Part shown: in pieces, positions 12,880 to 54,552 of the stretch
Layout: each line of letters begins with the position of its first letter
How positions within the stretch are numbered: position 1 is the stretch's first letter
Origin: an uncultured bacterium
Lineage (GTDB): Bacteria; Bacillota; Clostridia; Lachnospirales; Lachnospiraceae
DNA length: 64,000 nucleotides
Assembly: GCA_947073545.1 (NCBI GenBank)
Contig: CAMTMP010000002.1
Location: 186,001 to 250,000, forward strand
Direction: 5' to 3'
The notes under the pieces: generated by a model
What the model saw: only the letters and a program-made list of their open reading frames with translations
What the model was told of the DNA's origin: nothing
Databases searched by the model: none
Translations under genes and position numbers: made by a program

Positions 12880-13284
12880 CTATTTATTGTTTGACACATC
12901 ATAATACGGTACAATCAGGTGTGCGTCCGCAAAGATGGCATCGCTTGTCAGGTTGTTGATCTGCATCACTTCAAGGATGTACTCGTGGATAGACCCGTAA
13001 TGAGTCTCATCCATGTAGTCTTTTGCGATAGACCATAAGGTGTCATTGTCTGAGACAACAATGCTTTTATAATATTTAGAGGATTCCTGCAAAGGGTCGT
13101 TCTTTGCGCTGGACCGGAAAGAACTGACAGCGATGGATACGGTGACAATCAGACAGAAGGTCATCACAAACAGGAGGAAGTTTTTCCTCATTTCATGTCT
13201 TCTGCGTATGCGGTTATTGCGGATTCTTCTCTCGCTTCTGATATCCTGCGGTCTTTTGCTTTTCTGTGCCATAGTTCTATTCAT
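12880..13284 (-). CDS. YneA-like SOS cell-division suppressor (membrane anchor plus LysM)
   Basis: 134 aa. A very basic N-terminus (KSKRPQDIRSERRIRNNRIR) precedes one membrane helix (about residues 34-52). The extracellular part carries a single LysM-type domain (SIVVSDNDTLWSIAKDYMD to HLIVPY). Architecture and position, divergent from lexA, match Bacillus YneA, which delays septation during DNA damage. The ATG at 13284 has AAGGAG 6 nt upstream; the longer frame would start inside the operator region. Expression is very likely LexA-controlled, since LexA-like boxes cover and follow its promoter. Confidence 0.85.
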   Translation of the reverse strand: MNRTMAQKSKRPQDIRSERRIRNNRIRRRHEMRKNFLLFVMTFCLIVTVSIAVSSFRSSAKNDPLQESSKYYKSIVVSDNDTLWSIAKDYMDETHYGSIHEYILEVMQINNLTSDAIFADAHLIVPYYDVSNNK

Positions 13285-13327
13285 AGTCGACTCCTTTCTT
13301 GGAGATATAGTAAATGGATTTTCGAAC

Positions 13328-13354
13328 CGAACAAATGTTGCAAACAAATGTTCT
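13328..13354. promoter_or_regulatory. Two adjoining LexA-box-like sites
   Basis: CGAACAAATGTTGC (13328-13341) and CAAACAAATGTTCT (13341-13354), each close to the Firmicutes LexA consensus CGAAC-N4-GTTCG with one or two mismatches. They lie just downstream of the predicted yneA transcription start. Confidence 0.65.
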
Positions 13355-13364
13355 TTATGGGTGT

Positions 13365-13393
13365 ATTATATCGAACGTGTTTTCGTATGTCAA
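13365..13393 (-). promoter_or_regulatory. Consensus promoter of the yneA-like gene with a LexA box in its spacer
   Basis: Minus strand: TTGACA (13393-13388), exactly 17 bp, TATAAT (13370-13365), a perfect sigma-A promoter. The spacer contains CGAAAACACGTTCG (13385-13372), one mismatch from GAAC-N4-GTTC. A perfect promoter held silent by a repressor is typical of SOS genes. Confidence 0.8.
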
Positions 13394-13413: not shown

Positions 13414-13427
13414 CGAACAAATTTTCT
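13414..13427. promoter_or_regulatory. LexA-box-like site upstream of the lexA promoter
   Basis: CGAACAAATTTTCT, one mismatch from the GAAC-N4-GTTC core. It sits 11 bp upstream of the lexA -35 box and could serve autorepression. A weaker site (CTGAATATATGTTTGC, 13426-13441) overlaps the -35. Confidence 0.5.
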
Positions 13428-13537: not shown

Positions 13538-14158
13538 ATGGCACAGGGAAAGATCACTGTAAAGCAGCAGCAGATTCTTGATTATATTAAAGAAGAGATT
13601 TTAAACAAAGGATATCCTCCGGCTGTCCGGGAGATCTGTGAGGCGGTAAATTTGAAGTCTACTTCCTCGGTACACTCCCATTTGGAGACATTGGAAAAAA
13701 ACGGTTACATCAGAAGAGATCCCACGAAACCCCGCGCGATTGAAATTTGTGATGATAATTTCCAGATGGTTCGCACGGAGATGGTTTCCCTTCCTGTGAT
13801 CGGACAGGTTGCGGCGGGGCTGCCGATTCTGGCGGAGCAGAATATTGACAGTTATTTTCCGGTTCCGGCGGATATGGTTCCGGGCGGTGATTCCTTTGTA
13901 CTTAGGGTAAAGGGCGATTCCATGGTTAATGTCGGCATTTACAATGGCGACCAGATTTTTGTAAACTGCTGTCAGACGGCGTCGAACGGCGATACCATCG
14001 TGGCGCTGATCGACGATTCGGCCACCGTGAAGACTTTTTATAAAGAAAACGGACATATCCGCTTACAGCCCGAAAATGACTCTATGGACCCTATTATTGT
14101 GGATGACTGCCAGATTTTGGGGAAGGTGTTTGGTGTGTTCCGGCTTTATAAACATTGA
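13538..14158 (+). CDS. lexA: LexA repressor
   Basis: SOS-response repressor and self-cleaving serine protease, 206 aa. N-terminal winged helix ([13 protein letters not shown], then the recognition helix [18 protein letters not shown], about residues 9-60). The C-terminal protease domain shows the Ala93-Gly94 cleavage site (VAAGLP), Ser128 (GDSM) and Lys165 (ATVKTF), the catalytic dyad. Transcribed divergently from the YneA-like gene, with several LexA-type boxes in the shared gap, implying autoregulation. AGAAAGGACGAGG precedes the ATG. A terminator follows. Confidence 0.97.
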
Positions 14159-35501: not shown

Positions 35502-36038
35502 CTACTCTGCCCGGTCCTCCAGATCCTTCTGAATCATGTCCAGATAGGGTACCAGAATCCCATGTTTTTTCGGCAGTACATACGCCGGATTCAACTCGCC
35601 AAAACGGAAGCTTTTGCGCCCGCCCTCCTTCGCCCGATCCCAGAAATAGCGCAGCATCTCATAAGGCAGATAATAAAAGAGATCCTTGTGAGAGTAATAA
35701 ATAAGAAAGAACGCGATCCCCTTCTGCTTCTCGAACTGTCCCATAAATTCCACTTGGTGCTCATGGATATTCTGAAGTGCGAAAGTGTCGGCCGCGCATT
35801 CCTTCGCGTCAAAGCAGACGGGAATCCCCTGCACCGCGCCGATGTAATCCACAGTGCTCTTCTGATCAAAATAGGCGAGTGTGATATGACGGCTGTCCTT
35901 GTCTATATTAATCGGTGTAATGGGCGTGGGCACCTTCTGGATCAGCGCAAGCCCGTTTTCCAGATATTTTTCGTTGGTACGGTTGATCAGATCCTCCAAA
36001 GTGGAGCCGCGAAGCCCGCGTGAGTTCCATGTCGCCAT
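35502..36038 (-). CDS. recU: Holliday junction resolvase RecU
   Basis: 178 aa. Resolves Holliday junctions in recombination and repair in Firmicutes. The N-terminus TWNSRGLRGSTLEDLIN is the RecU hallmark. The nuclease core shows Asp64 (TVDYIGAVQG), Asp77 and Lys79 (CFDAKEC); Asp77 replaces the Glu common in Bacillus RecU, a conservative change. GAGG precedes the ATG at 36038. In Bacillus recU is coupled to ponA; here no penicillin-binding protein gene is adjacent. Confidence 0.95.
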   Translation of the reverse strand: MATWNSRGLRGSTLEDLINRTNEKYLENGLALIQKVPTPITPINIDKDSRHITLAYFDQKSTVDYIGAVQGIPVCFDAKECAADTFALQNIHEHQVEFMGQFEKQKGIAFFLIYYSHKDLFYYLPYEMLRYFWDRAKEGGRKSFRFGELNPAYVLPKKHGILVPYLDMIQKDLEDRAE

Positions 36039-36188
36039 CGTAATCCTCGCTCCAAAGTGTTTCTCAAATCCTGATTTTTCATCTATTATACTCTCTTTAC
36101 AGGAAAATAGCAAGAACAAATGTTCTGATTTTACAAGCATGCCGTTTGCTGTATTTTTTACACGGCGCTATGGTTTTCCTCCCGTTTT

Positions 36189-53771: not shown

Positions 53772-54509
53772 TCACTCCTCTACCCGGTACAAATATTCAC
53801 GGCTCCGCTTTCCCTCACGCCGCAGAATCTCCAGGTACATCAGAATCGGCACGGCATCTGCGGCGAGATCCCGCCTGATTCCCGCCGCCTTCGCAAAGTC
53901 CGTAATCGTGAAAGGCTCCTGCAGATCAATCGGAACAAACTGCATAAAATCCTCTGTTCTCTCCACCCGTATCTCGTCATAGAGGGATAACGGCATTCTG
54001 TCATAGCGTGTGGAACCCCGCTTTTTATTGCGGCTCCAGCCGTTTAAGAGCCGGTACTCATCCATATCGATCAGTGGAAAGGCAAAGGACAAATTCGGGT
54101 CTTTCAAAAAGGGTTTGATCCGGTACAATTCCGCAAAAGCGTGGTAGGCATTTCCGGTCACCGGAGATTTGTGTTTTTCGGAGAGCTCACCGCTCTCCTC
54201 GTTCATCCAGATCAACCATTTAAAATGTGGAATCGGAAGCACCACAGTGACCGGATAAAGCGGCAGAAATGCGGCGAGCTTGGGGCGCAGTTTCCCGAAA
54301 TTTCCATTCTGTATCTCTATGATATGTCCGTCCCTGTAAATATCAGCGATATATCCTTCTACGGGCACCTCGTGACAGTCCTCGTCGGGTTCATAGTATA
54401 ATTTCATCACCGCATGAACCGTCTTTTCCTGCAGCGTCCCGAAACCGTGCGGATCATTCTGTTTTAACAGTACCTTTCGTTTTGCGCTCTCAAATGCATT
54501 CTTATCCAT
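53772..54509 (-). CDS. Unknown protein with PD-(D/E)xK-like motif; probable SOS gene
   Basis: 245 aa, no signal or membrane segment. Family unnamed to me, although it looks like a widespread clostridial hypothetical: GTLQEKTVHAVMKLYYEPDE, then EGYIADIYRDGHIIEIQNG, KLRPKLAAFLPLYPVTVV. Glu28, Asp56 and Glu65-x-Gln67 follow the order of a PD-(D/E)xK nuclease core. The C-terminal third (FTITDFAKAAGIRRDLAADA, ILRREGKRSREYLYRV) resembles a winged helix, which could bind DNA. The promoter's -35 box lies in a near-consensus LexA box and its -10 lies only about 8 nt before the ATG, so the mRNA may be leaderless. I infer a DNA-damage-induced DNA-processing protein. Confidence 0.75.
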   Translation of the reverse strand: MDKNAFESAKRKVLLKQNDPHGFGTLQEKTVHAVMKLYYEPDEDCHEVPVEGYIADIYRDGHIIEIQNGNFGKLRPKLAAFLPLYPVTVVLPIPHFKWLIWMNEESGELSEKHKSPVTGNAYHAFAELYRIKPFLKDPNLSFAFPLIDMDEYRLLNGWSRNKKRGSTRYDRMPLSLYDEIRVERTEDFMQFVPIDLQEPFTITDFAKAAGIRRDLAADAVPILMYLEILRREGKRSREYLYRVEE

Positions 54510-54516
54510 AACATAT

Positions 54517-54552
54517 AGTATAACAGATATTCGACAGTCGAACAAGTGTTTT
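54517..54552 (-). promoter_or_regulatory. LexA-box-containing promoter of the unknown nuclease-like gene
   Basis: Minus strand: -35 TTGTTC (54545-54540), 17 bp, -10 TATACT (54522-54517). On the plus strand the site CGAACAAGTGTTTT (54539-54552) matches CGAAC-RNRY-GTTYC except for the last base and covers the -35. The neighbouring TTCGACAGTCGAA palindrome overlaps the spacer. Confidence 0.7.

Follow-up and report, generated by a model that had tools for sequence, protein, structure and literature searches.

Comparative analysis of a 64,000-nucleotide stretch of DNA (hereafter, the window) from a Lachnospiraceae host genome of 4.37 Mb in 94 contigs points to an unnamed gene whose promoter carries a LexA box and whose product is a putative nuclease with a winged-helix-like C-terminus. 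The in silico evidence for control of this gene by LexA is strong within the genus; we consider such control very likely, and induction by DNA damage very probable. A PD-(D/E)xK-type nuclease fold for the N-terminal domain, which we treat as putative, is suggested with good though lesser confidence by its invariant residues, and a nuclease function of the protein is plausible. The features on which this reading is built are collected in Table 1.

Table 1. Features of the focal gene, its promoter and the LexA-related loci used for comparison, in window coordinates.
Feature	Position	Strand	Basis or remark
Focal CDS, unnamed family	53772-54509	minus	ATG at 54509, 245 aa; in 60/60 congeners
Putative PD-(D/E)xK-like domain, residues 24-100	54210-54440	minus	invariant E28, H32, K36, E47, D56, E65, Q67, K77
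Winged-helix-like DNA-binding domain, residues 185-245	53775-53957	minus	sub-cut-off profile matches
-10 hexamer TATACT	54517-54522	minus	ends 7 nt before ATG; layout common to 19/19 proximal promoters
-35 hexamer TTGTTC, within LexA box	54540-54545	minus	sequence; spacer 17
LexA box CGAACAAGTGTTTT (coding strand AAAACACTTGTTCG)	54539-54552	none	pattern, matrix, congener comparison
lexA	13538-14158	plus	search
LexA boxes of divergent lexA/LysM-protein promoter	13328-13341, 13341-13354, 13372-13385, 13414-13427	none	comparison
Top-scoring LexA box of window, AGAACAAATGTTCT	36113-36126	none	matrix
recU-like gene (named by eye)	35502-36038	minus	75 bp downstream of AGAACAAATGTTCT box

A scan of bacterial genomes returned 43 loci of the focal gene, mostly titled Lachnospiraceae bacterium, with identities of 84-96% for the first fifteen and 50% for the last two. 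Every one of the 60 sampled genomes of the genus carries the gene, which is split in two pieces in one of them (G020); it was found in 73 of 299 genomes of the family (72 of 298 genera) and in 12 of 398 genomes of the phylum. Zero relatives were recovered when plasmids and phages were searched with the single focal protein and viral contigs with an alignment of the family (A2). The genome counts, together with this absence, indicate a chromosomal gene that is fixed in the genus as sampled but has a patchy distribution outside it, and an origin on a mobile element was rejected because of the same absence from viral contigs, plasmids and phages. A TTG start at 54545, offered by the list of open reading frames, was dropped because the promoter appears to overlap it. 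In one genus, the homologue (L276, G498:C64) is split over two matches that overlap, a pattern like that of a frameshifted gene.

Of the 43 scan loci, 36 have a gyrB-like gene downstream and 29 have a divergent GGDEF-type gene upstream. At the 80 loci outside the genus, where neighbors were named by eye from their translations, a polC-like gene is directly upstream in six, a miaB-like gene is downstream in five, and many other genes are found; no steady partner, whether a repair gene or another, that would point to a pathway emerged from the neighbors of these 80 loci.

The site CGAACAAGTGTTTT, read on the plus strand, is one base off the consensus CGAACNNNNGTTYG, and the -35 hexamer falls within it, as the sequence-only reading had claimed. 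With one mismatch allowed, however, the consensus gives 10 matches in the window versus 8.2 expected from shuffles, so the focal box is not above chance by this single pattern, and judging a LexA box from a single window was rejected on the same count. We trained a position matrix on 87 lexA and 58 recA boxes of the genus, picked by GAAC-N4-GTT with the focal gene left out. With this matrix, the focal site (15.5 bits) comes 4th among the 63,987 positions of the window, behind the box before the recU-like gene and two lexA boxes, the latter two being part of the training set. It is followed by another lexA box at 13.0 bits and then by a position at 9.6 bits, which is the top score in the window outside known or likely LexA promoters. 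The focal box thus fits the organism's own LexA motif, as represented by the lexA and recA boxes of the genus.

The lexA locus had been reported in the same window, and we find it there together with its boxes. At least one box, by a loose pattern, lies within 260 bp of lexA in 51 of 54 loci of the genus, with boxes of the kinds CGAACAAATGTTCT, CGAACATATTTTCG and similar; two of the loci lacking a box are cut close to the gene (L169 and L182), and one is a true miss (L179). A search of 31 congeners yielded 29 recA loci, and in all 29 a CGAAC-N4-GTTTT box is followed, farther downstream, by AGAAC-N4-GTTCT. The ten fixed outer bases of the first of these recA forms recur in CGAACAAGTGTTTT. The small LysM-like protein divergent from lexA (named by eye; 12880-13347, minus strand) has its LexA boxes in common with lexA, and yneA in Bacillus is likewise divergent from lexA with shared LexA boxes. 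One congener encodes a second LexA-like protein (L184, G053:C1:105378-105986) that is 71% identical to the window LexA over residues 1-203. Since the best LexA box of the window stands 75 bp before the recU-like gene, this Holliday-junction resolvase may be SOS-controlled too. The same sequence, AGAACAAATGTTCT, also occurs on contig C30 of the host genome (L054, at about 1501-1514), between genes that by eye are radical-SAM DNA-repair-like and transporter genes. In Clostridioides difficile, the LexA search motifs given in the available parts of a published regulon study include GAACnnnnGTTT; for surface plasmon resonance, the specific LexA DNA of that study was a recA operator in which GAACAAATGTTTG occurs (PMC4234289). 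The clostridial regulon described in those parts (lexA, recA, ruvC and uvrB of C. difficile) has operators of the GAACnnnnGTTT class near the promoter, as here, and the focal gene family is not among the genes that they name (PMC4234289). A limited search of titles and abstracts on the LexA/SOS regulon in Lachnospiraceae did not find the focal gene.

Comparison with orthologues, unlike the match in a single window, appears to settle that the focal LexA site is real. The promoter set comprised 59 of the 60 genomes, the split gene of G020 being left out. A box (GAAC-N4-GTTY or [GA]AAC-N4-GTTC) lies no more than 150 bp ahead of the start in 34 of the 59, whereas 200 rounds of dinucleotide shuffling gave 0.32 on average and never more than 2. 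Extending the search to 320 bp brings the count to 35, and no box was found within that distance in the other 24. When these 35 promoters are aligned on the box, 11 of its 13 columns are identical and the remaining two are 89% and 94% identical; identity is 31-57% in the columns lying 22 to 3 bases upstream of the box. The inner bases do vary among congeners, with AC, GC or AA in the 5th and 6th columns. Across the 60 whole genomes, the exact 14-mer has 25 occurrences, all of which, as matched to gene places, are at the focal promoter; the reversed 14-mer, used as a control, has four. Likewise, 33 of the 59 congeneric promoters reach at least 13 bits with the matrix, versus 0 matches in 154,896 bp from other parts of these loci.

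The 80 loci sampled outside the genus (71 from other genera of the family and nine from other families) include 2 promoters that reach at least 13 bits, versus 2 matches in 347,152 bp from their other parts; the other 78 homologues have no such site within 330 bp. The two exceptions are L212, with its site at -58 from the start, and L280, with its site at -48. L280 belongs to another family, so there may have been more than one origin of LexA control, or this match may be due to chance. A quick protein tree of 63 rows, in which 25 of the 60 inner branches are drawn open and the rooting is uncertain, requires at least five changes of the box, and box-bearing rows stand both at the unresolved base of the genus and in its largest clade. 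Subject to that rooting, the pattern fits a box that the ancestor of the genus already had and that was later lost several times; outside the genus the box is nearly absent. The proposal that orthologues would have a LexA site upstream is thus borne out for the 35 congeners and not for the other 24 or for 78 of the 80 outside homologues; for this reason, LexA control is best described as a trait of a lineage and not as a property of the family.

The operator overlaps the promoter, since the -35 hexamer is inside the box, and the box, a 13-base near-palindrome, extends 6 bases upstream of that hexamer. In 19 genomes, including that of the window, the box is 41-42 nt before the ATG. All 19 of these proximal promoters have a spacer of 17 and a TATACT ending 6-7 nt before the start codon, which is ATG in every case, and their genomes form one clade (SH-aLRT 93), with one change on the quick protein tree. 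The other 16 box-bearing congeners have the same promoter further upstream, at -76 to -186 from the aligned start, and a leader is therefore expected there. Transcription that starts 6-8 nt past the -10 hexamer would begin on or next to the A of the ATG, and the focal mRNA is, judging from this spacing, probably leaderless in the 19-genome clade. The sequence-only reading had raised a leaderless mRNA as a possibility, to which the conserved spacing between -10 and ATG in 19 of 19 proximal promoters lends support.

For the protein, 124 homologues were aligned, namely the window protein, the 43 scan loci and the 80 loci from outside the genus. Many of these rows are close relatives, and 76 are left after thinning of the N-terminal parts to below 72% identity; in a 22-row alignment, the most distant row is 27% identical to the window protein. 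Gly24, Glu28, His32, Lys36, Glu47, Asp56, Glu65, Gln67, Lys77 and Pro92 are identical in all 124 homologues. Glu28, His32 and Lys36 are spaced i, i+4 and i+8, as on one face of a helix, and Glu65 and Gln67 are spaced i and i+2, as on one face of a strand. The E...D...ExQ order is that of a PD-(D/E)xK site with Gln replacing Lys, and the residues that had been proposed to form it, Glu28, Asp56 and Glu65-x-Gln67, are found at those positions and are without exception invariant. Averaged Chou-Fasman propensities are roughly compatible, and no more, with the succession helix, strands, helix, strand. The available parts of one survey report a PD-EXQ variant for CoiA and BglII (PMC1189080), and another source, likewise in its available parts, states that new PD-(D/E)xK families are usually missed by standard sequence methods (PMC1913061).

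Profile searches for a PD-(D/E)xK fold returned no significant match, whether by hmmscan, by hmmsearch or by hhalign against Mrr_cat and DUF2161, and none of these methods ties the N-terminal domain to a known nuclease. The domain had no convincing match in Pfam (searched with the protein, alignments and consensus sequences), in NCBIfam, in PHROGs (four members tried) or among PDB sequences. Among PDB sequences, the N-terminal profile scores best with mevalonate kinase (E 0.03), which is not a nuclease, and PADLOC gave a single weak match, to a CARF model (E 0.0043), in one of 22 members. In one family consensus, the last 60 residues of the protein match the winged-helix families TrmB (E 3e-4) and MarR_2 (E 9e-4), and weak PDB matches of this region include winged-helix regulators and the ribosomal protein eS25. 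The winged-helix-like C-terminus that had been suggested is therefore consistent with both profile matches, but these are below the curated cut-offs, and a second consensus, built from distant members, gave no match at all.

Mrr_cat (PF04471), a nuclease of the PD-(D/E)xK type, can occur together with a winged helix in one protein. The focal family differs from it in residue pattern, and the hhalign comparison with 24 Mrr_cat proteins (24 of 30 fetched loci, L310-L315 not being entered) is not significant, as 12 of 100 column shuffles reach the observed score. A second candidate is DUF2161 (PF09929), which we take to be the same family as COG5482. Here the hhalign register sets Glu28, Glu47, Glu65 and Gln67 of the focal protein on E, E, E and K of 30 DUF2161 proteins (all 30 fetched loci, from 44 matching genomes; 219-290 aa, against 245 aa for the focal protein), which is suggestive only, the match being not significant (Prob 0.1 and 0.6, with 19 of 100 column shuffles reaching the score). 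Of the architectures that we met in print, that of COG5482 is the nearest: in the available parts of PMC1189080, it is a predicted nuclease with an E-CD-ELK site and a C-terminal wHTH, so that, as in the focal protein, the nuclease domain comes first and the wHTH last. The focal site differs in being E-D-ExQ (EIQ) with a shorter distance between D and E. The same parts of PMC1189080 describe the competence nuclease family CoiA (PF06054, COG4469), a DNA-processing protein with a PD-EXQ variant that resembles the focal E-D-ExQ, and list its C-terminal domain as unknown, whereas that of the focal protein is winged-helix-like. With hmmscan, neither PF06054 nor PF09929 matched any scanned member or consensus of the focal family, and a search of 81 genomes of the phylum for the CoiA family gave zero matches. 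Because the profile tests for both failed, we file the focal family under neither DUF2161 nor CoiA.

The gene, its box, the promoter layout, their conservation and the invariant residues can be read directly from the DNA, and the reading of them that we favor, with confidence somewhat above even, is of a LexA-repressed, SOS-induced and probably leaderless gene for a nuclease plus winged-helix protein that cuts or trims DNA during repair. LexA bound to the box would cover the -35 hexamer and block RNA polymerase; upon DNA damage, LexA would be cleaved and the focal gene transcribed, from a position at or next to the A of the ATG, yielding a leaderless mRNA. The N-terminal PD-(D/E)xK-type domain would present an E-D-ExQ active site, with Glu28 contributed by the first helix, followed by Asp56 and Glu65-x-Gln67, and its cleavage is predicted to be metal-dependent. 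The likely substrate would be DNA at damaged or recombining sites, which the protein would probably trim or cut while the C-terminal winged helix holds it.

The main competitor to a repair nuclease, to which we assign an appreciable minority share of the probability, is a LexA-controlled DNA-binding protein without nuclease activity. It would be a regulator or a structural DNA protein, with an N-terminal domain that is either no longer catalytic or serves to bind some other ligand. Such a protein would agree with the confinement of recognizable matches, mostly to DNA-binding winged helices, to the C-terminal domain, and with the failure of every profile to link the N-terminal domain to nucleases. 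The eight charged or polar residues that stay fixed throughout the 124 homologues despite low identity nevertheless look more like the mark of an active site than like a scaffold. A different role for the same activity is that of a LexA-controlled nuclease that is self-harming or anti-phage and that, when a cell is badly damaged or infected, degrades the DNA and does not repair it. A putative nuclease under SOS control, a patchy distribution in the family (about a quarter of the genomes) and the faint CARF hit of PADLOC would suit such a protein; its presence in every congener, the lack of a steady partner gene and the absence of relatives from viral contigs, plasmids and phages speak against it, and we consider it improbable.

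The remaining rival concerns the box, which might be the site of another repressor or merely a constrained -35 element. The inner four bases are nearly fixed here and vary more in the lexA and recA boxes, and the exact 14-mer is found nowhere else in the 60 genomes. Yet what is conserved is a 13-base near-palindrome that continues six bases past the hexamer, its inner bases do change in the 5th and 6th columns, recA carries the CGAAC-N4-GTTTT form in all 29 loci, and a LexA matrix trained without the focal gene still finds the site; we rate this alternative as very unlikely, slightly below a self-harming or anti-phage nuclease. Returning to the LexA-controlled repair nuclease, a bolder version of it may be entertained tentatively, and we regard it as doubtful: the gene could be the founding member of a new family of SOS-induced nucleases that combine an E-D-ExQ site with a winged helix, its LexA-controlled mRNA having turned leaderless a single time, within one clade.

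Among gut Lachnospiraceae, the SOS response would gain an unnamed chromosomal gene, one for which the searches of Pfam, NCBIfam, PHROGs, PADLOC and PDB sequences gave no convincing match. The eight fixed residues provide targets for testing its putative nuclease function. Because relatives carry the same promoter with or without a leader, the genus offers a natural comparison for leaderless translation of a damage-induced gene, and, if the bolder reading is true, an output induced by DNA damage would be tied to leaderless translation in one clade.
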